From positions 1-59,648 of the forward strand of contig JADZDR010000095.1 in assembly GCA_020850945.1 (NCBI GenBank): DNA of 59,648 bases, written 5' to 3'. The translations under genes were made by a program, and so were the position numbers. Below the pieces are notes generated by a model. It saw nothing but the letters and a program-made list of their open reading frames with translations, was not told the origin of the DNA and did no database searches. Below, piece by piece: positions 21,935 through 45,601 of this stretch (positions within the stretch are counted from its first letter, which is position 1; each line of letters starts with the position of its first letter). The stretch comes from Acidimicrobiia bacterium (lineage in GTDB: Bacteria; Actinomycetota; Acidimicrobiia; UBA2766).

Positions 21935-22056
21935 TTACGTGGGCGTACTGAGATACATCTGGTGTGGTTGGATACGCCCACGTGGGGGTCAGGGGTTACG
22001 TGGGCGTACTGAGATACATCTGGTGTGGTTGGATACGCCCACGTGGGGGTCAGGGG
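21935..22056. repeat. Tandem pair of 47-nt two-stem hairpins (copy A)
   Basis: Two perfect 61-bp repeats (21935-21995, 21996-22056). Each contains a 47-nt hairpin (21937-21983; 21998-22044): 11-bp perfect outer stem ACGTGGGCGTA/TACGCCCACGT, internal loop CTG/GGA, 6-bp inner stem AGATAC/GTGGTT (two G-T wobbles and one A-G mismatch), and 7-nt loop ATCTGGT. Both lie in the space between the M1-like peptidase stop and the SDR start. The same architecture occurs at 32086-32204 with a different inner stem and loop. Confidence 0.9.
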
Positions 22057-22063
22057 AGGGCGG

Positions 22064-23890
22064 TCAGAGGGTGCCGAGCAACTCGAGGAGGAAGGCGATG
22101 TCGCCGCTGCGCAGCGCGCCGAGGAGCTCCGAGACGGTGCTGAGTGCACCGCCGAGGATCCCCTCCGGCCCGCCGATGTCCGCATCGCCGTGGGTTTCCT
22201 CCATCCAGTGCGTCCAGAGCGCCCCGGTCTCGTCGGAATGACCTTCCATGCTGTCCGCGAGCGTTGCCACGAACTCCTCCTGCGTCACGATGGCCTGAGC
22301 GTGCTCCCGTGTCACGGCCGCGAGGGCTGCGTCCACCGCTTCGGCCCCCGCTTCGGACTCCAGGGCCTGCCAGAAGCCCGGCCCCTTCCCGTAGACGATG
22401 CCACCGTAGCTCGTGAACGTCTCGAACTCCGTCGTGGGCTGGTCGACCGGGGCGTCCGCATCCCCGAGGACTCGCATCGTCACGTATGCAAGATCTGTGT
22501 TCGCATCGCATGCCGTCTGGCCCGTGTCACCCTCGGCGTCGACGAGGAACCGGCACGCACCGTACTGCGCGAGTGGCTCGTCGATCGCAGCCGTCGTGAT
22601 CTGGTCCGAGCCGACGATCCCGTACCACCACTGGTGAGCCACCTCGTGTGCGATCGTGAAGTCGCGGACGAGGCGCAGGGCGCCCACGAGCTCTCGGACG
22701 ATCTCGCCGAGAGGTCCCTCGACGAGGCCGGCCGCCCCCTCGCCCAACGCCAGGATGTCACCGAGCTCGTCCGACCACTCGCCGCCACCTGGGATGCCAC
22801 CCGCGAAGATGTCGGCTGCAATCCAGACGGACCCGGACCACTCGACACCTCCCACGGAGAGGGGCAGTGGGGTTGCCACGACGTCGAGCTCCGGCCACGG
22901 GTATGCGCCCCACCGCGCGTCGAAGTACGACAGGGCGCCCGCTGCGATGCGTGCCGCCTCGGCTGCCTCGTCGGCGCGACCGGCTTCGGCCCATGCACGA
23001 ACGGTCACACCGCCGGCGTCGACGGTGACGGCTGCGAGGTCGCGGCCGGCGACACCGGACAGATCCCGCAGGCTCCGCCCCGCCTCACCGAATGCGACGA
23101 GGTCACCTTCGGGGGCGGACTCCACGGACGTCGCGTTGGTCGTGAGCTCCCAGCCCGGGGGGAGCCTGACCCGTGCCGCCCAGTCGGCGGCCGGGAAGTT
23201 GCCGATGTCACCCATCCCGAGGTCGGCGCCTGCCTCTCCTCCGGGAGTGATCGCCACGGGCAGCCAGTGCCCGAGGAGGACACGGTCTTCGGAGCGGCCG
23301 AGCAACGACGACGCGAGCTCCTCGTCACCCTCGTCCTCCCCCAAGCCGGGAACGAGATCCGCGAGGAGATCGGCGGGGGTCGGTTCGGGGAGCTCGGGCA
23401 GCACGTAGTCGACATCGAGGCGGATGGACTCCGTCCCCGCGGGTGCAGGCACACGCAGGGTCGTCTCCGAGAGGTCGGTGTCGACTCGTCTCCCGTCCAC
23501 GCGCACCTCGATGGCGGTGGCGGTGGCGGCTGCCGACAGGACACGGAAGGTGACGGCCCCGTCGTCGGTGACCGCGCCGACGCGTTCGACCTCGAGTCGG
23601 GCGTGCACCTGGCCCGTGCCGGGGTCGACAGTTGCATCGACGACGTATCGCGGGATCGTGGCCTCCGGCCCGGCGCTACCGCCGAGACTGACACGGGACA
23701 GCATGGATTCGATGCCCGCCTCGTCGCTCGTCGTGTCTGTGGACAGCAAGGTCACGACTGCAAGCGTGACGGCCAGAATCAGGATCGACGCACCCGCGAG
23801 GACGAATGGGAGGCGGCGCCCACGCCGCCTCGGGGGAGGTCCGGGTTGTGAGGTCGAATCCGGCACGGGCCGGGACAGCACCTGTGTCAT
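22064..23890 (-). CDS. Membrane-anchored M1-family-like zinc metallopeptidase
   Basis: This 608-residue protein has a short basic N-terminus, one membrane helix (about 28-50) and a large outside domain. The gluzincin site HEVAHQWW lies at about residues 414-421 and the third zinc ligand follows in AAIDEPLAQY. The aminopeptidase GAMEN-like site is changed to GGVEWSG, which keeps the glutamate. It is likely an extracytoplasmic peptidase tethered to the membrane; substrate unknown. ATG 23890 is preceded by GGAGG. The hairpin pair starts 7 nt past its stop. Confidence 0.82.
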   Translation of the reverse strand: MTQVLSRPVPDSTSQPGPPPRRRGRRLPFVLAGASILILAVTLAVVTLLSTDTTSDEAGIESMLSRVSLGGSAGPEATIPRYVVDATVDPGTGQVHARLEVERVGAVTDDGAVTFRVLSAAATATAIEVRVDGRRVDTDLSETTLRVPAPAGTESIRLDVDYVLPELPEPTPADLLADLVPGLGEDEGDEELASSLLGRSEDRVLLGHWLPVAITPGGEAGADLGMGDIGNFPAADWAARVRLPPGWELTTNATSVESAPEGDLVAFGEAGRSLRDLSGVAGRDLAAVTVDAGGVTVRAWAEAGRADEAAEAARIAAGALSYFDARWGAYPWPELDVVATPLPLSVGGVEWSGSVWIAADIFAGGIPGGGEWSDELGDILALGEGAAGLVEGPLGEIVRELVGALRLVRDFTIAHEVAHQWWYGIVGSDQITTAAIDEPLAQYGACRFLVDAEGDTGQTACDANTDLAYVTMRVLGDADAPVDQPTTEFETFTSYGGIVYGKGPGFWQALESEAGAEAVDAALAAVTREHAQAIVTQEEFVATLADSMEGHSDETGALWTHWMEETHGDADIGGPEGILGGALSTVSELLGALRSGDIAFLLELLGTL

Positions 23891-23924
23891 GACCCTCCTC
23901 GGGCACAGGTTCGAAGCCTCGACG

Positions 23925-24974
23925 TTATCGGGGGGAGGGCGGGAATTCGCTGAGAAACGTCATCAGGACCGCGGGCACCTGCTTCGGTGGGGTGAGCAGC
24001 ATGCGACGCGCAGCCTCCCGCACGATGTCACGATCCGCCTCTGCCTCGAGATATTCGACGGGTGACTTGCCGTCGATGCGGGCGAGGAGGAGGCCGGGGA
24101 GGAGAGCGGCCGTGCGAGCCTCGACGTCTGCAGGGTCCTCCCAGTCGATCCCCGTTCGGTACGCGTTCCACAGGTTCTCGTAGCTCGTCTCGTAGAGCCG
24201 CCCGTGCTCCGGTCTCCACACGCACTTGAGGAGCAGATGGTTCAGGCAGAAGGCGACATCGAAAGCCGGATCTCCCCAGCAGGCCGCCTCGGCGTCGAGG
24301 AAGACGGGGCCGTCCGGGCCGACGAGGATGTTCTTGGGGCTCATGTCCCCGTGCACGAGGGCGACGTCAGCCCGATCCAGAGCAGCGGCGAGCCCCTCGA
24401 GCTGCCGTGCCACATCCGGGTGTCTCGACGCGGTCGTGCGCAGGTAGGCGTCGGTGCGCTTCGCCTCGAACGTCTCCCGGAACGTGGCGGTCGAGAACCG
24501 CTCACGGATGTCGGGACGCCGTGCCGTCGCGGCGTGGATCTGCACGGCCAGGGAACCCACGTGCGCGCCCGTCGCCGCATCTGCGCGGCCGGCGGCGAGC
24601 TGGGACTTCCAGAGGGGATGCGTTCGCGGGGGGAACCAGGTCATGGCGAACCAGCCGCTCTCCCCGTCACGTGACGGGGGCACGTGCGTGACGACGCGCG
24701 GCACGTGTCCGGGCACGATCTCCGCCGCGGTGCGCAACCACGCAACCTCGCCGGCATTGCGCGCGACGGGTGCGTACCAGTCATCCGCCACACGGAGCCG
24801 GGGCAGAGCCCGCTTCACGACCAGCGTTCGGGCGGGGAGGTCGACGCGGTAGGTGTCGCAGGAGACCCCGCCGGTCAGCGGTGTGACGACGACATCCTCG
24901 GGGTCCCCGGCGAGTCCGGCCGCCACCATGTCGGCGACGGGATCCCACGTTTCCACGTGGGCGGATTCTGCCAT
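23925..24974 (-). CDS. APH-family (aminoglycoside phosphotransferase-like) kinase
   Basis: This 349-residue protein has a kinase-like fold with the catalytic loop HGDMSPKNIL (about 205) and the metal-binding DAEAACWGDPAFD that replaces DFG in this family. An N-lobe lysine is in LVVKRAL. Members phosphorylate small molecules such as sugars, choline or acyl-carnitine-like substrates; the substrate here is unknown and resistance is not implied. ATG 24974 is 19 nt from the divergent topA start. Confidence 0.85.
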   Translation of the reverse strand: MAESAHVETWDPVADMVAAGLAGDPEDVVVTPLTGGVSCDTYRVDLPARTLVVKRALPRLRVADDWYAPVARNAGEVAWLRTAAEIVPGHVPRVVTHVPPSRDGESGWFAMTWFPPRTHPLWKSQLAAGRADAATGAHVGSLAVQIHAATARRPDIRERFSTATFRETFEAKRTDAYLRTTASRHPDVARQLEGLAAALDRADVALVHGDMSPKNILVGPDGPVFLDAEAACWGDPAFDVAFCLNHLLLKCVWRPEHGRLYETSYENLWNAYRTGIDWEDPADVEARTAALLPGLLLARIDGKSPVEYLEAEADRDIVREAARRMLLTPPKQVPAVLMTFLSEFPPSPR

Positions 24975-24980
24975 GCCGGA

Positions 24981-24986
24981 TACAGT
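24981..24986 (+). promoter_or_regulatory. -10 box for topA (likely leaderless)
   Basis: TACAGT lies 7 nt before topA ATG 24994, within the 19-bp space between divergent starts. No Shine-Dalgarno is present. Confidence 0.5.
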
Positions 24987-24993
24987 CGCGGGC

Positions 24994-27600
24994 ATGGCGC
25001 ACACCCTCGTCATCGTCGAGTCGCCGGCGAAGGCGCGCACGATCGCCCGCTTCCTCGGCGACGGATACGTGGTCGAGGCGAGCATGGGGCATGTGCGGGA
25101 CCTGCCGCGTAAGGCGTCCGAGCTGCCCGCCCGGTACAGGGACAGGCCGTGGGCGCGCCTCGGCGTGGACGTAGACGGCGACTTCGAGCCCGTCTACGTG
25201 GTGCCCAAGGACAAGGCAGCGCGTGTGAAGGCGCTGCGCCTCGCAGTCCGGGATGCCCACGAGCTCCTCCTCGCAACCGACGGCGACAGGGAGGGTGAGT
25301 CGATCGCATGGCACGTCCTCGAGGTCACGAAGCCCTCCGTGCCCTTGCGGCGCATGGTCTTCCACGAGATCACACCTCTCGCCATCCGGCGCGCCCTCGA
25401 GGACACACGAGATCTCGACACACGACTCGTGGCGGCACAGGAGACGCGCCGGGTCCTCGACAGGCTCGTGGGCTGGGACCTCTCCGAGCTCCTCTGGAAG
25501 AAGGTGGCGCCGAAGCTGTCGGCAGGCCGCGTGCAGAGTGTGGCGACGAAGCTGGTCGTCGATCGCGAGCGGGCACGCATCGCCTTCCGGTCGGGAACGT
25601 GGTGGGAGGTCAGAGCCGACTTCGAGGCGGTAGCGGGGCGACTGCAGGCCACACTCACCCACATCGACGATGCCCGTGTGGCCGTGAGCCGGGACTTCGA
25701 CGCCGCGACCGGCGAGCCGTCCGACGCCGGCCTCGTGCTCCTCGACGAACCGCACGCGCGCAGGCTCGCGGCCGCGTCCCTCCAGCGCGAGTTCGAAGCC
25801 GGCGAGCCGGCACGCGCGGCGTGGCGGCGCCGGCCGGCTCCGCCCTTCGTGACGGCGTCCCTCCAGCAGGAGGCGTGGAGACGGCTGCGTCTCTCGGCCG
25901 CCCGCACCATGCAACTCGCGCAGCGCCTCTACGAGAGCGGCCACATCACCTACATGCGGACGGACTCCGTCGAGCTCGGGGAGGAGGCGCTCGGGGCGGC
26001 GCGTGCTGACGTGCGTGAGCTCTTCGGTGACGCAGCCTTGCCCGCGAAGCCGCGTCGGTACAGGCGCAAGGGCAAGCACGCGCAGGAGGCGCACGAGGCC
26101 ATCCGGCCGACTGGGCCTCGCTTCGCACGGCCGGACGAGATACGGGGGCGCGTGGAGGCCGACGCGGCCCGCCTCTACGAGCTGATCTGGAGGCGGACGC
26201 TCGGCTCGCAGATGACCGACGCGGTCGGGTTCGAGATACGTGTCGACCTCGTGGGAACCGTGGAGACCGGCCAGCGTCTCGTGTACACGGCGGCGGGCCG
26301 GATCGTCACCGACGCGGGCTTCCTCGCGGTGTGGGACGAACCGAACCGGGAGGTCGCCGACGAGACAGCCCTCGTCCTGGACCGCCTCACGAGGTCGGAC
26401 CGTGCCACCTGCCGTGCAGCCGATCCGGAGGGCCATGCGACGCAACCACCCGGCCGGTACACGGAGGCGAGCCTCGTCAAGGAGCTCGAGCGTCTCGGTG
26501 TGGGGCGTCCCTCCACGTACGCGGCGATCCTGCGCACGATCGTGGACCGGGGTTACGTGCGCCGGGCCGGTGGGAGCCTCGTTCCGACCTGGGCCGCCTT
26601 CGCAGTCGTGCAGCTCCTCGAGCGCCACTTCCCCGACCTCGTCGATGCCGGTTTCACCGCCGGCATGGAGGAGGCACTCGACGACATCGCGGCCGGCGCG
26701 GTCGAGGCCGTCCCGTGGCTACGTGCCTTCTACTTGGGTGCACCGCCCGCTCCGGGGCTGCGGGACGCGGTCGCGGCGGGAGCGGCCGGCATAGACGCGC
26801 GTGAGGTGACGACGATCTCGCTCCATCCCCACGATGCCGACGGCCCCTTCGACGTACATTTCGGACGCTACGGTCCCTACGTCGAAGCCGATGCCGGCCG
26901 GATCCGCGTCCCCGAGGACCTCGCGCCGGACGAGCTCACGGGCGAGAAGTTGACCGCACTCGTCGCCTCCGGTGCTGTCGCATCGGAGGACAGGGCGCTG
27001 GGGGCCGACCCGGACTCCGGTGAGCAGATCGTGCTGCGGCACGGGCCGTACGGCCCGTACGTGCAGCGCGGTGAAGGGAAGTCGGCCCAGCGTGTCGGGT
27101 TGCTCCGGTCGACGGATCCGGACAGCGTCTCGCTCGACACCGCGCTCGCCCTGCTCGGACTGCCCCGACTCGTCGGCTCAGACGACGACGGTGTCGAGAT
27201 CACCGTGCACACGGGCCGGCACGGCCCGTATCTGAAGCGGGGGCGGGACACGCGCAGCATCGAAGACAGCCTCGTGTTCACGATCGCACCCGCGCAGGCC
27301 CTCGAGATCCTCGCCCGGCCGAAGGCCCGGGCAGGGCGACCACGTGTCGGGAAGAGTGCCGCCACGGGGGGAGCAGGGCTGCTCGCCGATCTCGGGACCC
27401 ATCCCGAGACCGGGCAGCATCTCGTCGTGCGCGACGGCAGGTATGGGCCGTACGTCACGGACGGGAAGACGAATGCCTCGATCCCGAAGGGCACGGCACC
27501 CTCCGACGTGACCGTGGAAGGTGCGGTCGAGCTTCTCAGACGGCGGGCGGACTCGAAGCGACGCGGCCGGAACCCCCGGAAGAGGCGGCGGCGGGCCTGA
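24994..27600 (+). CDS. topA: DNA topoisomerase I (type IA)
   Basis: This 868-residue protein opens with the TOPRIM domain (HTLVIVESPAKART) with the acidic triad in DGDREGE, and has the active-site tyrosine in ITYMRTDS (Y320). The C-terminal region has four GRYGPYV-type repeats and ends in a Lys/Arg-rich tail, the actinobacterial form without zinc fingers. It relaxes negative supercoils by cutting one strand. ATG 24994 starts exactly at the conserved N-terminus. The 3' end overlaps the convergent ferric-reductase-like gene by 65 nt. Confidence 0.97.
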   Translation: MAHTLVIVESPAKARTIARFLGDGYVVEASMGHVRDLPRKASELPARYRDRPWARLGVDVDGDFEPVYVVPKDKAARVKALRLAVRDAHELLLATDGDREGESIAWHVLEVTKPSVPLRRMVFHEITPLAIRRALEDTRDLDTRLVAAQETRRVLDRLVGWDLSELLWKKVAPKLSAGRVQSVATKLVVDRERARIAFRSGTWWEVRADFEAVAGRLQATLTHIDDARVAVSRDFDAATGEPSDAGLVLLDEPHARRLAAASLQREFEAGEPARAAWRRRPAPPFVTASLQQEAWRRLRLSAARTMQLAQRLYESGHITYMRTDSVELGEEALGAARADVRELFGDAALPAKPRRYRRKGKHAQEAHEAIRPTGPRFARPDEIRGRVEADAARLYELIWRRTLGSQMTDAVGFEIRVDLVGTVETGQRLVYTAAGRIVTDAGFLAVWDEPNREVADETALVLDRLTRSDRATCRAADPEGHATQPPGRYTEASLVKELERLGVGRPSTYAAILRTIVDRGYVRRAGGSLVPTWAAFAVVQLLERHFPDLVDAGFTAGMEEALDDIAAGAVEAVPWLRAFYLGAPPAPGLRDAVAAGAAGIDAREVTTISLHPHDADGPFDVHFGRYGPYVEADAGRIRVPEDLAPDELTGEKLTALVASGAVASEDRALGADPDSGEQIVLRHGPYGPYVQRGEGKSAQRVGLLRSTDPDSVSLDTALALLGLPRLVGSDDDGVEITVHTGRHGPYLKRGRDTRSIEDSLVFTIAPAQALEILARPKARAGRPRVGKSAATGGAGLLADLGTHPETGQHLVVRDGRYGPYVTDGKTNASIPKGTAPSDVTVEGAVELLRRRADSKRRGRNPRKRRRRA

Positions 27601-28150
27601 CCCCTCCGGTGTTCCCGGGACGGGGATCGCCCTTGCCGCTCAGGACGCGCACGAGGGTGAGGAACATCACGGCGGCGACCGACGCGACGCCGACGACGCG
27701 CCACACCGCATTCCCGGCATCCGTTCCGGCCACCATGTGGAGCGCGGCCAGCCAGAAGAGCACGTAGCTGAGGAGGTGGACGAGCCGCCACACCCGCGGG
27801 CGGAGGCGCGAGCGCAACAGCGACGTGAGCTCGACGGCGAGAAGGAGGTAGAAGCCGACTACACCCGCGGCCATGGCGAGGGGATGCCAGTCCGCGGCGA
27901 ACGGCACGAGGAGGTCGGCGACGCCGAAGTCGAGCCACGAGTCGGCGAGGAACGCGACCATGTGCACCCCCACGAACGCGGTTGCGAGGCCTGACAGCAT
28001 GCGATGCACGTCGAGCAGCCAGGCGGGGGGAGGACGACGACCCGCGAGCCGTGTCGAGAGCATGAGGCCGAGGACGACCGAGAGCGTGAGGAGGACGAAG
28101 GCGACCAGTCCGGTCGCGCGCGCGATGTACCAGGCGGTGTGGGAGCTCAT
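27536..28150 (-). CDS. Ferric-reductase-like transmembrane (MsrQ/YedZ-type) protein
   Basis: This 204-residue protein has about five to six membrane helices with paired histidines suited to haem b (DVHRMLSGLATAFVGVHM and RLVHLLSYVLFWLAALHM). It matches the ferric-reductase-like transmembrane domain. It would carry electrons across the membrane to or from a flavin carrier. The start overlaps the stop of apbE (ATGA), which argues for a functional link with flavinylation. Confidence 0.82.
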   Translation of the reverse strand: MSSHTAWYIARATGLVAFVLLTLSVVLGLMLSTRLAGRRPPPAWLLDVHRMLSGLATAFVGVHMVAFLADSWLDFGVADLLVPFAADWHPLAMAAGVVGFYLLLAVELTSLLRSRLRPRVWRLVHLLSYVLFWLAALHMVAGTDAGNAVWRVVGVASVAAVMFLTLVRVLSGKGDPRPGNTGGVRPAAASSGGSGRVASSPPAV

Positions 28151-29100
28151 GTGGTCACCATCTCCTCGAAGGCCGTGTGGGCCGGGCCTGTCATGTGCAC
28201 TTCGCCGTTGACGTCGGTGGCGATCGCGATCACGTCGAGCTCCTCGAGGAGCTCGAGTCCGTCTCGAAGGCCGCCGACGAAGACGGCCTTCGTCAGCGCC
28301 TCGGCCCACCACGCGGCCGACGCAACCACCGACACCGCGATGATGTCGCCGCCGAGCGGGCGGCCTGTGCCCGGGTCGAGGAGGTGATGCATGCGGACGT
28401 CGCCGACACGCCAGGTCCTGCCGAGCCGGCTGCTCGTCGCCACGGCCCCGTCGGCCAGCGTGATGCGGCCGATCTCATCCTCGGTATCGAACGGGTTCGC
28501 GAGGACCACGGTCCAGAGTCCGTCCCCGCCGGGTGCGTGACGCACGCGGAGATCGCCTCCGACGTTGACGAGGACCTCGGTCGCGCCCTGGCCGAGGAGT
28601 TGGGCCGTGACGAGATCGGCGGCAAGCCCCTTGCCGACACCTCCCGGATCGAAGCCCACGTCGGACCCCAGGCTCACACTGCGGACGACGGGATCGAGTG
28701 AGATGCCGAGGTCAGGCCGCCGTGGCCGTGAAGCTGCCGAGGACACGGCTGCCTGCCGGAGCGGCACATCCTCGAAGGTCCGGTCGTACCCCGCGGCCAC
28801 GAGCGCGTCAAGGAGCGTGGGGTCGAAGCGTCCGGCCGTGACCTCCCACGCCCGCACCGCCACCTCGAAGAGTGCGTACGTCTCGGGCGACACGATGTAG
28901 GGGGAGTGCGGGGGAGCCGCGTTCAGTGTCGAGACCTCGCTCGTCTCGACGAAGCGACTCCAGGCACGTTCGAGATCGCGGAGGCGCGCCTCGCCCGGCC
29001 GGCCGAGATCGAGCGGGCCACCGACCCACAGGATCTCCGCCGCCGTGCCCATCACCCGGAAGGTGTGCCGTCGCGTGCCGCGTTCAGCTTCAGCTCTCAC
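28147..29100 (-). CDS. apbE: FAD:protein FMN transferase (ApbE)
   Basis: This 317-residue protein has RVMGTAAEI near the start, the family block DPGGVGKGLAADLV, then VNVGGDLR and HHLLDPGTGRP, all typical of ApbE. It moves FMN from FAD to a Thr/Ser of an extracytoplasmic protein. No signal peptide or lipobox is obvious in this form. GTG 29100 overlaps the end of the upstream small gene. No FMN-binding-domain target is encoded in the window. Confidence 0.92.
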   Translation of the reverse strand: MRAEAERGTRRHTFRVMGTAAEILWVGGPLDLGRPGEARLRDLERAWSRFVETSEVSTLNAAPPHSPYIVSPETYALFEVAVRAWEVTAGRFDPTLLDALVAAGYDRTFEDVPLRQAAVSSAASRPRRPDLGISLDPVVRSVSLGSDVGFDPGGVGKGLAADLVTAQLLGQGATEVLVNVGGDLRVRHAPGGDGLWTVVLANPFDTEDEIGRITLADGAVATSSRLGRTWRVGDVRMHHLLDPGTGRPLGGDIIAVSVVASAAWWAEALTKAVFVGGLRDGLELLEELDVIAIATDVNGEVHMTGPAHTAFEEMVTT

Positions 29101-29482
29101 TGCTCCGGCTCACTCTCGACGCGCCGGACGAGGAGGGTCGTGTCCCGCCGCTCGAGACGTGATCCGTCCCTGGGCGAGCGGTGACCGTGCCGGGGGACGA
29201 GGCGGGGACGTACACCTTGCGGTGGATCTCGATGCGGATGACCTTCTGGGCCGGAGAAGCACCTGTTGAGACGAGGCCGTCCTCGATGTACGACACCGGC
29301 CAGGGGGACTCCGGTCCCGCGCCGTCCGCTGCGTCCGGCGGGGCAGTCGCGGCCATCGCCGAGACGAGAGCGACGGTTGCCGACGTGCTCAGCCCGGCGG
29401 CGAGGAGCCTCGTCGCCGGGGCCTTGTGCGGCCGGCGCCGGTGTCTCGCCCGATCAGGTGCGCCACCTCGGGCCTCAGTCAT
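29090..29482 (-). CDS. Small single-pass membrane protein in the apbE operon
   Basis: This 130-residue protein of no recognised family has a basic N-terminus, a membrane helix (about 25-47, RLLAAGLSTSATVALVSAMAA), and a short outside domain with a VIRIEIHRKVYVP strand and a Ser-rich tail. A TGAS sequence (residues about 80) resembles loosely the [S/T]GA[T/S] sites modified by ApbE, but the spacing of the upstream Asp is not canonical. It is wedged between the Asp/His-rich gene and apbE with overlaps on both sides, supporting a shared role. ATG 29485 is an equal alternative start. Confidence 0.6.
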   Translation of the reverse strand: MTEARGGAPDRARHRRRPHKAPATRLLAAGLSTSATVALVSAMAATAPPDAADGAGPESPWPVSYIEDGLVSTGASPAQKVIRIEIHRKVYVPASSPGTVTARPGTDHVSSGGTRPSSSGASRVSRSSES

Positions 29483-29840
29483 CATCCTGGTCTCCCTCGT
29501 GGTCCTCGTGGTCGTCCTGGTCCCCGTGGTCGTCGCGGTCCCCGCGGTCGTCGTGATCGTCGTGCTCGGCCTCGTCGTCGTCGGCGGACGGCACGGGCGA
29601 GCCGAAGTCCCCGTAGCCCTCCTCCGCACCTGTCGCAGCCGGATCGGATGCGGGGACCGGTACCGGCTCCTCCACTATCACCGTCTCGATCGGTGCGGGT
29701 GAGGTCGTCGCGGGGAGGTCGCCGACGTCGGATTCGGACGTGGACGACAGGATGCCGAGGTTCGCGGCCGTGGCGACCGAACCTGCGAGGAGCACGGCCA
29801 CGACCGTGCCGGCTGTGGCGATGGCTGTCTTACGGCGCAT
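29475..29840 (-). CDS. Exported Asp/His-rich protein
   Basis: This 121-residue protein has a signal peptide or anchor (MRRKTAIATAGTVVAVLLAGSVATAA), a Pro/Val/Glu-rich linker and a C-terminal 35 residues made almost wholly of Asp, His, Glu, Gly and Arg (for example DDHDDRGDRDDHGDQDDHED). Such a tail could bind metal cations outside the membrane. It is the first gene of the minus-strand redox operon and is divergent from a two-component system across 128 bp. No family assignment is possible. Confidence 0.65.
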   Translation of the reverse strand: MRRKTAIATAGTVVAVLLAGSVATAANLGILSSTSESDVGDLPATTSPAPIETVIVEEPVPVPASDPAATGAEEGYGDFGSPVPSADDDEAEHDDHDDRGDRDDHGDQDDHEDHEGDQDDD

Positions 29841-29911
29841 TGGATTCCACCTTCTCGTGAAGCGGTCGGGTCCACCGTACGGTCGGGTGCGACAGCGGCC
29901 ACCCAGCGCCG

Positions 29912-29930
29912 GGCAAAGGTTTGGTAAAGG
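29912..29930 (+). promoter_or_regulatory. 11-bp direct repeat, likely OmpR-type operator
   Basis: GGCAAAGG (29912) and GGTAAAGG (29923) are spaced 11 bp apart, the usual geometry for dimers of winged-helix response regulators. They end 38 nt before GTG 29969. A GACACT box at 29957-29962, 6 nt before the GTG, may be the -10. The site could autoregulate the two-component system and also control the divergent redox operon. Confidence 0.55.
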
Positions 29931-29968
29931 TGAGTGACGGTCCGGTCGTGAGGTGGGACACTCCTTGC

Positions 29969-30637
29969 GTGCATCTGCTTCTCGTCGAGGACGACGACAC
30001 CATCGCCAAACCCCTCGTGACGGGACTCGAGAGAGAGGGTTGGGCGGTCAGCCGCGTCGAGACGGGCGAGGAGGCCCTGCGCATGCCGGTTCCGGACCTC
30101 GTCCTCCTCGATCTCGGACTGCCCGATCTCGACGGAGTCGAAGTGTGCCGCCGGCTCCGTGAGCAGTCCCCGGTCCCGATCATCGTCGTCACTGCGCGAG
30201 GGGAGGAGCTCGACCGTGTCCTCCTCCTCGAGATCGGTGCCGACGACTACGTCGTGAAGCCGTTCGGCTTCCGCGAGCTCGTGGCACGCATCCGTGCCGT
30301 GCTGCGCCGTTCCGGCCGGGACGCGACCGCCGGCACGCCGCCCGAGGTCTCGGAGTTCGGGCGTCTTGTCGTGGACCGCAGGGGACGGAGGGTGAGTGTC
30401 GACGGTGAGGACGTGCACCTCACGCCGAAGGAGTTCGACCTCCTGTCCTTCCTGGCGGCGCATCCCGGCGCCGTCCTGTCCCGGGAACAGATCCTGAACG
30501 AGGTGTGGGACACGGAATGGTGGGGGCCGACGAAGACCCTCGACGTGCACGTCGCGTCGCTGCGGCGCAAGCTGGGCGACGCCGCGAGCATCGAGACCGT
30601 GCGCGGTGTCGGCTTCCGGTTCGCGGGGCCGGCATGA
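29969..30637 (+). CDS. OmpR/PhoB-family response regulator
   Basis: This 222-residue protein has a receiver (acidic D8/D9, phospho-site D48, lysine in DDYVVKPFGF) and a winged-helix DNA-binding domain (LTPKEFDLLSFLAAHPGAVLSREQIL to ETVRGVGFRF). GTG 29969 begins at the conserved strand; earlier in-frame codons run through the operator repeats. Its stop overlaps the kinase start (ATGA). It faces the ferric-reductase/ApbE operon, which is its most likely target. Confidence 0.93.
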   Translation: MHLLLVEDDDTIAKPLVTGLEREGWAVSRVETGEEALRMPVPDLVLLDLGLPDLDGVEVCRRLREQSPVPIIVVTARGEELDRVLLLEIGADDYVVKPFGFRELVARIRAVLRRSGRDATAGTPPEVSEFGRLVVDRRGRRVSVDGEDVHLTPKEFDLLSFLAAHPGAVLSREQILNEVWDTEWWGPTKTLDVHVASLRRKLGDAASIETVRGVGFRFAGPA

Positions 30638-32001
30638 CGCGACGTCTCCTCCTCACCTACCTCACGATCACGGCGGTCGTCCTCGTCACGCTCGAGGTGC
30701 CCCTCGGGATCATCTTCGCCCGGAACGAGCGCGAGCGCCTCGCCGTCGATCTCGAGCGCGACGCGGTCGTGATGGCGAGCCTCGTCGAGGACTCGCTGGA
30801 GCACGGGACGGCCGGGGACTTCACGCCCCTGGTCGACCGGTACGTGGACAGGACAGGCGCACGTGTCGTGATCGTCGACGCCGACGGCGTCAGCATCGCC
30901 GACAACGAGGCGGCAGTGGGTCGCTCCTTCGCGAGCAGGCCGGAGATCGCGGCCGCGCTGGATGGCCGTCGCGAGACGGGCCAGCGGTACTCGGTGACGC
31001 TGGGCGAGGAGCTCTTCTATGTCGCGGTACCCGTCGCGTCGGGCGGCAACGTGTACGGGGCTGTGCGGATCTCCTTTCCCACGTCCGAGGTCGAGGGCCG
31101 CATCCGCCGCACGTGGCTCGGGCTTGCCGCCCTGGGCTTGGTCGTCCTCGCATGCGTCGCCGTCGTCGGGGCACTCCTCGCCCGGTCCGTGACCCGTCCT
31201 GTGCGTGAGCTCGAGGAGGCGAGCCGGCGCCTCGCGTCGGGCGATCTCGGATCGCGTGCTGCGACCGACTCCGGTCCGCGAGAGATCCGCAGCCTGTCGA
31301 AGTCCTTCGACGACATGGCCGACCAGATCGAAGAGCTGATCGCGTCGCAGCGCGCGTTCGTCGCCGACGCCTCACACCAACTCCGCACTCCCCTCACGGC
31401 GCTGCGCCTGCGTCTCGAGAACATGGAGGCCACAGAGGAGGTCGGCGCCGACGAGTACGAGGCGGCCGTGGCCGAGGTGGAGCGGCTCGGCGTCCTCGTC
31501 GACCAGGTGCTCCGGCTCACGGCGGCCGAACGCCCACACCAGGCACTGGACGAGGTCGACATCTCGGACGTGTTGCGAGTGCGTTGCGACGCGTGGGAAG
31601 CGATAGCCGCCGCCCGCGGAGTCGGGCTCGAGACAGATCTCGGGCGAGACGAGAAGGTCGCTGTGGTCCACGGCGCACTCGAGCAGATGGTCGACAACCT
31701 CCTCGACAACGCCATCCGCTTCTCGCCGGCGGGCTCGGCGGTACGTGTCCGTGTCGAACCGGACGGTCGTTGGACGTACATCCACGTCGAGGACGAGGGG
31801 CCGGGCATGTCGGAGGCCGAGGCGCACCGTGCCTTCGACAGGTTCTGGCGCGCGAACCGGAGCGAGAAGACGGGGACGGGACTCGGCCTCGCCATCGTGC
31901 GCGAGCTCGCGCGAGCGGGAGGAGGGGACGCCTCCCTCGGCAGGGGTGCGGGCGGAGGGGTCGACGCCGTCCTCCGCCTCGTGACCGTCGCGCCACGCTG
32001 A
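30634..32001 (+). CDS. Membrane sensor histidine kinase
   Basis: This 455-residue protein has helix 1 (about 5-28), an outside sensor domain of about 120 residues, helix 2 (about 165-187), a HAMP domain, the H-box DASHQLRTPLTALR (about H247), N-box MVDNLLDNAIRFS, G1 DEGPGM and G2 GTGLGLAIVRE. It is the partner of the OmpR-type regulator it overlaps. The last 13 codons are repeated 257 bp downstream, beyond the minisatellite and hairpins, so the C-terminus could change by recombination. The signal is unknown; the neighbouring genes suggest metal or redox state. Confidence 0.93.
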   Translation: MTRRLLLTYLTITAVVLVTLEVPLGIIFARNERERLAVDLERDAVVMASLVEDSLEHGTAGDFTPLVDRYVDRTGARVVIVDADGVSIADNEAAVGRSFASRPEIAAALDGRRETGQRYSVTLGEELFYVAVPVASGGNVYGAVRISFPTSEVEGRIRRTWLGLAALGLVVLACVAVVGALLARSVTRPVRELEEASRRLASGDLGSRAATDSGPREIRSLSKSFDDMADQIEELIASQRAFVADASHQLRTPLTALRLRLENMEATEEVGADEYEAAVAEVERLGVLVDQVLRLTAAERPHQALDEVDISDVLRVRCDAWEAIAAARGVGLETDLGRDEKVAVVHGALEQMVDNLLDNAIRFSPAGSAVRVRVEPDGRWTYIHVEDEGPGMSEAEAHRAFDRFWRANRSEKTGTGLGLAIVRELARAGGGDASLGRGAGGGVDAVLRLVTVAPR

Positions 32002-32009
32002 ACACCCCA

Positions 32010-32086
32010 CCACCAACCCACCACCAACCCACCGCCAACCCGCCGCCAACCCGCCGCCAACCCGCCGCCAACCCGCCGCCAACCTA
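32010..32086. repeat. 11-bp minisatellite, seven units
   Basis: Seven head-to-tail units of CCRCCAACCCR (first two with A, then G; the last unit ends TA). It begins 8 nt after the kinase stop and runs directly into the first 47-nt hairpin. The other strand is a run of GG/GGG tracts that could form a G-quadruplex. Confidence 0.9.
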
Positions 32087-32215
32087 CGTGGGCGTACTGA
32101 ACCACGCTCACGGTGGTTGGATACGCCCACGTGGATGTGGGGGCTTGTCGCTGATCTACGTGGGCGTACTGAACCACGCTCACGGTGGTTGGATACGCCC
32201 ACGTGGATGTGGGAA
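32084..32215. repeat. Tandem pair of 47-nt two-stem hairpins (copy B)
   Basis: Hairpins at 32086-32132 and 32158-32204, 72 bp apart. The outer 11-bp stem and the CTG/GGA internal loop are identical to copy A, but the inner stem is AACCAC/GTGGTT (fully paired) and the loop is GCTCACG. The left arm of the inner stem is changed so that pairing improves while the right arm stays the same. Flanks differ from copy A (GTGGATGTGGG instead of GTGGGGGTCAGGGG). Confidence 0.9.
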
Positions 32216-32219
32216 GGAC

Positions 32220-32260
32220 GACGCCGTCCTCCGCCTCGTGGCCGTCGAGCCACACTGAAC
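32220..32260 (+). pseudogene. Duplicated 3' end of the histidine kinase gene
   Basis: These 41 bp match 31963-32003, the last codons and stop of the kinase, at 38 of 41 positions. The copy keeps the reading ...DAVLRLV.V.P. and the stop codon but has no gene body. The two copies bracket the minisatellite and hairpins, so the insert may have arisen by or could be removed by recombination between them. Confidence 0.85.
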
Positions 32261-32263
32261 GTC

Positions 32264-32554
32264 CTACATGCCGTGGTCCTCTGCCGCATCGAGGAGGGCA
32301 AGGACGGCTGTCTCGATGTCTGCCGCCTCGTCGGCGATCACCGCGGCCTCGGCGTCGTCGTGACGTTCCGCCAGGGAGCGCACGTGGCCGGCCAGGGCAC
32401 TGACGGCCGCGCTCAGACCCTCGAGCACCTCGATGTCGTACCGCTCGGGTGCTGTGTTGATGTGGGCGAAGGGGAAGGCCACGATGACGTGCGGACTCCC
32501 GTGCCGGCCGCCGACGATCCGGCGCGCGTCGGTTCCGTCCCTCTCGTCGGTCAT
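32264..32554 (-). CDS. Hypothetical 96-residue protein
   Basis: An unrecognised small soluble protein. The N-terminal half contains a hydrophobic strand (HVIVAFPFAHIN) and the C-terminal half is an Ala/Glu/Asp-rich helix pair that may form a coiled coil. ATG 32554 has a good GAGGAG ribosome site 5 nt upstream, which is the main reason to accept it. It is divergent from the esterase gene and converges on the kinase across the repeat insert. Confidence 0.55.
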   Translation of the reverse strand: MTDERDGTDARRIVGGRHGSPHVIVAFPFAHINTAPERYDIEVLEGLSAAVSALAGHVRSLAERHDDAEAAVIADEAADIETAVLALLDAAEDHGM

Positions 32555-42458: not shown

Positions 42459-44437
42459 ACACAACGTTCGATCCGGCCTCGATTCCGCTCCCGTCGAGCC
42501 TCGAGTTGCTCAGGCGGTCCAAGTGGACCGACGAGATCCCGGGCCTGCGCGAGGAGTCCGAAGGCCTCCTCGCGGCGGCCGAGGCCAAGCGGGTGCGGGC
42601 CGAGTCGACCGCACACAGGCTCGCCCGACCGCAGATCGACGCCATGATGGTCACGGCGATGGCCCGCATCGGCGGGCGCACAGGTGTGATCGCGGCCGCC
42701 GAGCTTCTCGCCACGGCAGTGGGAGGCGGCCGGGCGGGTTCGTCCCACCGCGGCGGGGATCGGATGATCCAGCGGGCCGAACAACTCGTGCGAGCGGGCG
42801 GGCCCGCCTGGGTGAAGCTGGGCCAGTTCGTCGCCACGGCCGGTGGCCTGCTGCCGGAAGACTGGGTCGAGACGTTCGCGTGGTGCCGGGACGAGGTGCC
42901 GCCGTTCCCGGCCGAGGTCGCCCGCGAGCGGGTCCAGCACCACCTCCACCGGCCGGTCGGCACCCTGTTCTCGGACTTCGAGGACACCCCGCTTGCGGCG
43001 GCGTCGATCGCGCAGGTGCACACGGCGACCCTCCCCGACGGACGGGACGTCGTCGTCAAGATCCGCCGTCCCGGGCTCCGCCGGCGTTTCTTCTCCGACA
43101 TCCGCGCCATGGCCGGCGCCGCGCATGTGGCCGAGCGCGTGAGCTCGGTCGCCCGAACCGGGAACGTCTCCGGCTTCGTGGAGCTGTTCGCCCGACTCGT
43201 GTTGGAGGAGCTCGACTTCGGACTGGAGGCGGCCAACATGGTCGAGCTCGGGTTGACGGCGGAGCACGCCGGCGCCGACTACGTGCGCTTCCCACGGCCG
43301 ATTCCGGGCATGGTCAGTGACGCAGTTCTCGTGATGGAGCGGGTGCCCGGCACCGCCTACACGGTCACCGACCTGAGTGCCGTGGACCGGGAGCGGCTCC
43401 TCCGCCTCGCCATCCAAGGCGTCCTCGAGCAGACCCTCGTGTACGGGGTCTTCCACGGAGACCTGCACGCCGGCAACGTCCTCCTCGACGAGGAGGGCAC
43501 GTTCTCCCTCGTCGACTTCGGCATCGTGGGCCGCCTCGACAAGGCCCAACGCGCAGCGCTCGTGCGGTTCCTCGTCGGTTTCGTGCGCAACGACATCCGC
43601 GACGAGCTCGAGGCGATGGTCACCTTCGGCGCCATCCCCGCGCGTGCCGACCTCGACGCGATCGCGGCCGACATCGAGGCCGAGGTCGATCCCGGGTCGC
43701 TCGGCACCGACGCGCCGACCACTGCGCTGGCCGCCGCCGTCGGCCGTCTCATCCGGGTCGTGGCCCACCGTGGCTTCCGTCTCCCCAAGGAACTGGTCCT
43801 CTTCTTCAAGAACCTGCTCTACCTCAACGGGTTCGCGAACGCCGTGGCTCCCGACTCGAACCTGCTCGCGCAGGTCGATCCGGTCTTCCAGTACTTCGAC
43901 TCCAAGTACGGCCGGGCGATCCCGCTCTTCCTCGGCAGCGACGGCACCCCTTCCGAGAACCCCGACGAGGCGGAGGGACCGGTCGCAGGGGGGTCGCTGA
44001 CCTCACAGGACCTCACGACAGGGCTCACCGAACGGGCCGTGTTGGCGCAACTCCTGCGGGGCCGCAGCGACGACGAGTTGTACGAGCTCGCCGCCGCGAT
44101 CGGCATGCCCACCCTCATGCAGATGGTGATCGAGGCGCTCGTGGCGCGGTTCCAGGCCGAGCGCGCCACCGGCCAGGAGGCTGTGATCCGTTGGGACGTC
44201 GCCGATGCCACCGGTGTGAGGCACTCCTTCGTGATCACCGTCGACGAAGGGAGCTGTGCGGGGTCGGTCGACGTGGCCGGCGACCCGCGGCTCACGCTCG
44301 GCATGACCGTCCCCGTGTTCCTGCGCTTCCTCGCGGGTCAGGTCGACTCGATGCAGGCGTTCATGGAAGGCGACTTCGAGGTCACGGGCGACCTGCCGTT
44401 CGCGGTCTCCTTCCAGTCGTGGTTCCGGGAGGACTGA
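42455..44437 (+). CDS. ABC1/UbiB-family kinase-like protein fused to a C-terminal SCP2 domain
   Basis: This 660-residue protein has the atypical kinase core: WVKLGQF (KxGQ motif), AAASIAQVH in place of a glycine-rich loop, VVKIRRPG lysine, catalytic HGDLHAGN and metal-binding DFG. The last about 130 residues (from DELYELAAAIGMPTLMQMV) are an SCP2-like lipid-binding domain, closely similar to the stand-alone protein at 45164. ABC1 proteins are ATP-dependent and act in isoprenoid-lipid and quinone handling. The fusion points to lipid binding or transfer. ATG 42455 overlaps the leader ORF stop. Confidence 0.88.
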   Translation: MNTTFDPASIPLPSSLELLRRSKWTDEIPGLREESEGLLAAAEAKRVRAESTAHRLARPQIDAMMVTAMARIGGRTGVIAAAELLATAVGGGRAGSSHRGGDRMIQRAEQLVRAGGPAWVKLGQFVATAGGLLPEDWVETFAWCRDEVPPFPAEVARERVQHHLHRPVGTLFSDFEDTPLAAASIAQVHTATLPDGRDVVVKIRRPGLRRRFFSDIRAMAGAAHVAERVSSVARTGNVSGFVELFARLVLEELDFGLEAANMVELGLTAEHAGADYVRFPRPIPGMVSDAVLVMERVPGTAYTVTDLSAVDRERLLRLAIQGVLEQTLVYGVFHGDLHAGNVLLDEEGTFSLVDFGIVGRLDKAQRAALVRFLVGFVRNDIRDELEAMVTFGAIPARADLDAIAADIEAEVDPGSLGTDAPTTALAAAVGRLIRVVAHRGFRLPKELVLFFKNLLYLNGFANAVAPDSNLLAQVDPVFQYFDSKYGRAIPLFLGSDGTPSENPDEAEGPVAGGSLTSQDLTTGLTERAVLAQLLRGRSDDELYELAAAIGMPTLMQMVIEALVARFQAERATGQEAVIRWDVADATGVRHSFVITVDEGSCAGSVDVAGDPRLTLGMTVPVFLRFLAGQVDSMQAFMEGDFEVTGDLPFAVSFQSWFRED

Positions 44438-45163: not shown

Positions 45164-45601
45164 TTGACCGACACCGTCCCCTCCAACTTCAGCGACCGGG
45201 ATTCCCTCGCCAAGCTGATCGAGAACCTCTCCGACGAGGAGCTCTACAAGCTCGCCGACACCATCGGCATGGACAACATGCTCGAGATGGTGATCGGTGC
45301 CCTCACGAGCCGCTTCCAGTCCGAGGCCGCCGGCGACCAGAGCGCGGCAGTTCAGTGGGACGTCATCGACGCGGCCGGTGCCACGCATTCGTTCGTGCTC
45401 GAGGTCGAGGACGGCAGGATGACGGGCAGCCTCGGCACGACACCGACGCCGCGCATGACTCTCGTGACGCAGGTGCCGGTGTTCCTGCAGTTCCTCGCCG
45501 GCACGGTCGACCCGATGCAGGCGTTCATGGGAGGTCAGCTCAACCTCAGTGGCGACATGACGTTCGCGCTCACGTTCCAGACCTGGATCCGCACCGACTG
45601 A
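45164..45601 (+). CDS. Stand-alone SCP2-like lipid-binding protein
   Basis: This 145-residue protein aligns along most of its length with the C-terminal domain of the ABC1-SCP2 protein (DEELYKLADTIGMDNMLEMV; HSFVLEVEDG; PVFLQFLAGTVDPMQAFMGG; FALTFQTW). SCP2 domains bind lipids or acyl-CoA in a hydrophobic tunnel. It is likely a paralogue from duplication of the fused domain, or the source of it. TTG 45164 is chosen because GGAG lies upstream at suitable distance. The 3' end overlaps the convergent aminotransferase gene by 32 nt. Confidence 0.85.
   Translation: MTDTVPSNFSDRDSLAKLIENLSDEELYKLADTIGMDNMLEMVIGALTSRFQSEAAGDQSAAVQWDVIDAAGATHSFVLEVEDGRMTGSLGTTPTPRMTLVTQVPVFLQFLAGTVDPMQAFMGGQLNLSGDMTFALTFQTWIRTD

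Follow-up and report, generated by a model that had tools for sequence, protein, structure and literature searches.

The question raised by this locus is what two pairs of short hairpins are doing in two separate intergenic regions, and what could have placed them there. They lie in a 59,648-nt stretch of DNA from an Acidimicrobiia bacterium (contig JADZDR010000095.1), called the window below. A preliminary description, made from the letters of the window, took them for members of a REP/BIME-like or other non-autonomous family, or for a structured RNA.

The hairpin arrays of the window

The four hairpins lie where they had been placed, on the minus strand, and each is 47 nt long, with two 23-nt arms around a single central base (a 23+1+23 layout) and a perfect 11-bp outer stem. 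Array 1 consists of two identical copies (21937-21983 and 21998-22044) that start 61 bp apart and are separated by a 14-nt spacer (21984-21997). The copies of array 2 (32086-32132 and 32158-32204) are likewise identical to each other, but start 72 bp apart, one helical turn more than in array 1, with a 25-nt spacer (32133-32157) that represents a second spacing class. Hairpins of the window fold much more strongly than shuffled sequences (z scores of -5.2 and -6.0). The 6-bp inner stem that had also been described is present in array 2 but not in array 1, where AGATAC stands opposite GTGGTT and only about 3 inner pairs can form. Both arrays do follow stop codons, array 1 by 19 nt (the stop of a minus-strand gene, 22064-23755) and array 2 between convergent genes, at 84 and 59 nt from the respective stops.

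Read in a common orientation, the element consists of a C-rich flank, ACGTGGGCGTA, YYC, AACCAC, 7 variable bases, GTGGTT, CAG and TACGCCCACGT, frequently followed by AAC or GG. Across the family the outer arms are almost invariant and the centre is variable; among the 63 copies whose flanks were compared, the left flank is C-rich and the right one mostly begins with A or G. In array 1, the last 11 nt of the spacer (on the canonical strand) are identical to the 11 nt preceding the first hairpin, arguing that this pair arose by local tandem duplication.

Several other features were recorded in the window. An 11-nt tandem repeat (CAACCCGCCGC) at 31992-32085 abuts array 2, with a period that matches the offset between the two spacing classes. 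The 3' end of a histidine kinase gene is duplicated around the same array (31959-32010 and 32216-32267, 87% identical over 52 nt); apart from this case, no long target-site duplications were found around the arrays. Array 2 and the gene at 32264-32554 are absent from the corresponding place in a congener (G001), as is the M1 peptidase-like gene beside array 1 (22064-23755) from its syntenic site, where no gene separates the flanking SDR and phosphotransferase genes. The window also holds a 153-nt direct repeat (44285-44437 and 45449-45601, 73% identical). A Pup ligase gene supports the assignment to Actinomycetota.

A dispersed family in two related species

In the genome that contains the window (3.91 Mb in 97 contigs), the motif ACGTGGGCGTA-N25-TACGCCCACGT has 45 exact matches and the reversed-pattern control has none. 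With a tolerance of five arm mismatches, 63 copies in 41 arrays were recovered, none of them with more than two mismatches, and two more at C91 bring the count to at least 65. The congener contains 72 diverged copies (two-mismatch pattern). Elsewhere the family is nearly absent: a covariance-model search of 60 relatives returned G001 and otherwise one weak stray, a second model applied to 296 genomes of the class found the family in the window genome and G001 and in none of the other 294, and exact matching against 84,980 named species genomes produced two stray matches. A search for a phage or virus origin found no match to the hairpin in phages or viral contigs.

Almost all copies in the 41 arrays of the window genome are intergenic. 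Copies stand singly or, often, in pairs and are located mostly at gene 3' ends, 6-60 nt beyond the stop codon in most arrays (gene boundaries came from a simple in-house caller, so that individual stop-to-hairpin distances are approximate). Convergent gaps are enriched for arrays, both in the window genome (14/41, against a background of 15/141) and in G001 (19/44 against 10/61), and divergent gaps are depleted. The 166 genes neighbouring the arrays show no recurrent Pfam families other than common housekeeping ones. Next to co-directional genes the hairpins are oriented at random (22 of 45), and a strand-specific structured RNA is therefore not favoured. The REP/BIME-like reading, on the other hand, is borne out by the many intergenic copies, their position at gene 3' ends, their pairing, and the compensatory changes between species described below.

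The location of these strong hairpins, 6-60 nt beyond stops and between convergent genes, would also suit a role as bidirectional terminators of transcription or as stabilisers of mRNA 3' ends, with a sequence shared by chance. This is very improbable. No T-run follows the hairpin, and a terminator scan did not recognize it; in addition, the sequence is conserved far beyond what a terminator needs, the tandem pairs have fixed spacing, and the same palindrome brackets a nuclease gene (see below).

Paired copies point in the same direction (head-to-tail) and are nearly identical in the window genome. Their spacers are specific to each locus and tend to match the adjoining flank, which argues that pairs in general come from local tandem duplication. 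The start-to-start distance is 61-62 or 71-73 bp, and in G001 also 83 (twice) and 94 bp (once). The 83-bp distance was rejected as a primary class, being in both cases a composite of a spacer, a CCCACGT scar and another spacer; the 94-bp distance may be composite too, and two primary classes are claimed. Their phasing by one helical turn is suggestive. CCCACGT remnants mark places where a middle hairpin was lost (L120:467-596, L127:1908-2037, and L007 after 3120), and they are consistent with deletion between direct repeats of CCCACGT located at the ends of the element.

The outer arms of the congener's hairpins (ACGTGGGCGGA/TCCGCCCACGT) differ from those of the window genome in a way that preserves pairing. 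The outer-stem pair 10-38 has switched family-wide, from T-A in the window genome to G-C in G001 (UA 38, GC 37, other 3), and pairs 12-36 and 16-32 are likewise switched between the species. Compensatory change, which had been expected of a real family, is thus evident between the species, where the covariation score is higher than in every shuffle and slid control, but not within the window genome, where it barely rises above shuffles. About 6-8 array positions are common to both species, one with flanks conserved up to the hairpin, and part of the family must therefore be old. Hairpins at shared positions are nevertheless no more similar than random between-species pairs; the family is homogenised within each species. 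At the window's own array loci, gene content differs between the two species, and the syntenic G001 contig (L077) carries neither window array, with a different array located elsewhere. The comparison of the two genomes caught no recent insertion.

A nuclease gene bracketed by the palindrome

REP families of the classical kind are associated with RAYT (Y1) transposases, and the preliminary description, finding none in the window, suggested that a Y1-type gene might lie elsewhere in the genome. No PF01797 gene was found in the window genome or in the three closest relatives searched, with positive controls that matched. A reverse transcriptase, as for retron-like overwriting, was also looked for and none was found. 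What the palindrome does bracket is a DUF559 gene, one in each species (L147 in G001, and in the window genome L028:3092-4033, the final codons of which extend into a hairpin), which was noticed because it is located between two hairpin sites. It is one of four DUF559 genes in the window genome and one of two in G001. Within its N-terminal part, the reading frame at L147 is interrupted by an in-frame stop, even though the palindrome family is abundant in G001; this stop may be genuine or an artefact of assembly.

The N-terminal part of the L028-type protein matches AbiEi_4, the PADLOC AbiEi model (7e-27) and, by profile, the AbiEi-type structure PDB 6y8q. The C-terminal part is DUF559, with the profile relatives PDB 3hrl (endonuclease-like) and 3r3p (a mobile intron protein, which we take to be the Vsr-like I-Bth0305I). 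E203, D234, E245, D247 and H251 are near invariant and are putative catalytic residues, assigned by sequence only. The protein is predicted to combine an AbiEi-like DNA-binding module with a Vsr-like nuclease (DUF559, PD-(D/E)XK-type) in one fusion.

The AbiE type IV toxin-antitoxin systems, which share this N-terminal DNA-binding module, offer a possible account of the hairpin itself. In Streptococcus agalactiae, the site bound by AbiEi comprises two inverted repeats of 23 bp with 3 bp between them; the homologue from M. tuberculosis binds two pairs of this kind (PMC7319586). By analogy, the 23+1+23 hairpin fits an AbiEi-type binding site. There are also differences from AbiE: no AbiEii (DUF1814) toxin gene is adjacent on the start side of L028 or in the Tsukamurella example described below, the protein has a C-terminal nuclease, and its sites occur also past the stop codon and genome-wide.

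One might therefore regard the palindromes as ordinary operators of AbiEi-DUF559 genes, with the dispersed copies kept by selection as regulatory or structural sites and no nuclease-driven spread. AbiEi proteins do regulate their own genes, through upstream inverted repeats to which they bind (PMC7319586), and both the near-invariant arms with variable centres and the array positions held in common with the congener agree with this idea. However, a matching copy past the stop codon is unexpected for an operator, copies in general sit at gene 3' ends and are rare in divergent promoter gaps, and identical tandem copies with locus-specific spacers indicate turnover. We consider this account unlikely, although it is the strongest of the alternatives.

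The likeness to REP/RAYT systems (IS200/IS605-type Y1) is close in two respects: short palindromes are dispersed at gene 3' ends, often in pairs, and one dedicated gene is flanked by the same palindromes. In this family, however, the flanked gene is not a Y1 gene (PF01797) but an AbiEi-DUF559 nuclease of another superfamily, the GTAG tetranucleotide of GTAG REPs is missing from the stem end, and the pairs are direct, head-to-tail and fixed in spacing. CGTC-tagged REPs resemble the family in being dispersed palindromes without a RAYT, but here there is no unpaired CGTC (CGT lies within the stem, and the next base is C in 10/65 copies), and there is a candidate enzyme. Head-to-tail pairs are negligible among CGTC REPs (PMC3733652), unlike in the present family. 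A classical REP family mobilised by a RAYT that has since been lost, with the DUF559 genes merely inserted into palindromes, would explain the REP-like location, dimers and copy number, and the CGTC-type REPs likewise have no transposase (PMC3733652). Yet neither a Y1 gene (four genomes) nor the GTAG tag is present, and each DUF559 gene has its own palindrome, tracking the protein, which is unlike a chance passenger; a lost RAYT is accordingly improbable.

The sites of the bracketed gene bear on a further possibility, that DUF559 genes are homing genes targeting pre-existing palindromes that spread by another route. L028 and L147 are non-orthologous. On its start side the L028 gene neighbours chorismate synthase, and the G001 chorismate synthase locus (L152) has tandem hairpins without a DUF559 gene; the gene thus sits inside an array where the congener has the array only, although the two are different species and the flanks have diverged. 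In the window genome, the L033 locus also has a hairpin without the gene. A DUF559 gene at a site empty in a relative (with the same reservation about species and flanks) recalls the Vsr-like (EDxHD) homing endonuclease I-Bth0305I, and the DUF559 domain is related in sequence to the mobile intron nuclease 3r3p. The AbiEi-DUF559 gene nonetheless differs from I-Bth0305I in lying outside any intron or intein, in being bracketed by multi-copy palindromes, and in its fused AbiEi module. Homing into palindromes would also require that every genome has a second disperser, despite the co-variation of palindrome and protein; we give it as little credence as the lost RAYT.

The explanation that we favour, and hold to be probable, is that the hairpins are dispersed palindromic sites of a dedicated AbiEi-DUF559 nuclease, which binds its own palindrome and probably disperses and homogenises it. 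The AbiEi module would bind both 23-bp arms, and tandem palindromes one helical turn apart may let two bound dimers interact. The nuclease would then cut the palindrome or its immediate vicinity, and repair templated by a different copy could spread the palindrome, sometimes with the gene, and overwrite diverged copies. The association of gene and palindromes is observed; binding, cutting and dispersal are inferred. The window copies would be non-autonomous members residing at gene 3' ends, where insertion is least harmful.

DUF559 genes and palindromes across the class and beyond

The association of a REP-like family with an AbiEi-DUF559 gene is general. About 70 DUF559 loci were read from about 30 genomes of the class. 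Among the 57 genes in the long-type group (about 300 aa), 38 have matching repeats on both sides, one ahead of the start and one around or after the stop, whereas 2 of the 300 windows used as controls do (Fisher 2e-34). The matching repeats are mostly palindromic and close to the start; one third of the long-type genes lack matched flanks at the threshold used. The palindrome is private to each gene, and relatedness among palindromes follows that among the proteins (Mantel r 0.44, 0/2000 permutations). Tandem spacings of 60-63 and 71-73 bp recur beside unrelated palindromes at DUF559 loci of other genomes.

Dispersal of other DUF559 palindromes was seen in both genomes that were checked, the window genome and G014. 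A second family of the window genome, perfectly palindromic and 46 nt long, brackets the DUF559 gene L234 (2299-2344 and 3359-3404) and has further copies at L029:1118 and L012:251 among the sequence scanned. In G014, which belongs to another family, three DUF559 palindromes are dispersed, mostly just 3' of genes, in 400 kb. Shuffled versions of the L234 and G014 palindromes gave 0 matches. The same arrangement occurs in Tsukamurella tyrosinosolvens (NZ_LR134454.1), where EL451_RS09515 has TGCGGTGGAT...ATCCACCGCA on both sides and LysE and NAD(P)H-binding genes as neighbours.

Genes of a short DUF559 type (L170, L173, L223, L226) are flanked by different repeats and were left out of the supporting count; L170, L223 and L226, which have no AbiEi part, are flanked by direct repeats of 50-70 nt that are not simple palindromes. 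A DUF559 gene of G003 has a tandem hairpin pair at its 3' end (L162:1378-1489, 61-bp spacing) whose outer arm, GACGTGGGGACGT, resembles the window family; a matched upstream copy was not found.

A search of the open-licence literature found no description of DUF559 with palindromes, homing or repeats, which is not proof of novelty. It is conceivable, at somewhat less than even chances, that these genes form a novel class of selfish elements, widespread among Actinomycetota, in which single-gene AbiEi-Vsr nucleases spread their own 45-50-bp palindromic operator by break-induced copying, with lineage-specific palindromes and with diverged copies overwritten, leading to genome-wide concerted evolution. 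For many palindrome families of bacteria, no enzyme is known. Nucleases annotated as DUF559 or AbiEi-like are here tied to palindrome families by position and co-variation in many genomes, and the link suggests a rule for public genomes, namely to seek the same palindrome 5' and 3' of a gene. DUF559-AbiEi proteins thereby gain a testable role, and orphan REP-like repeats a candidate mover.
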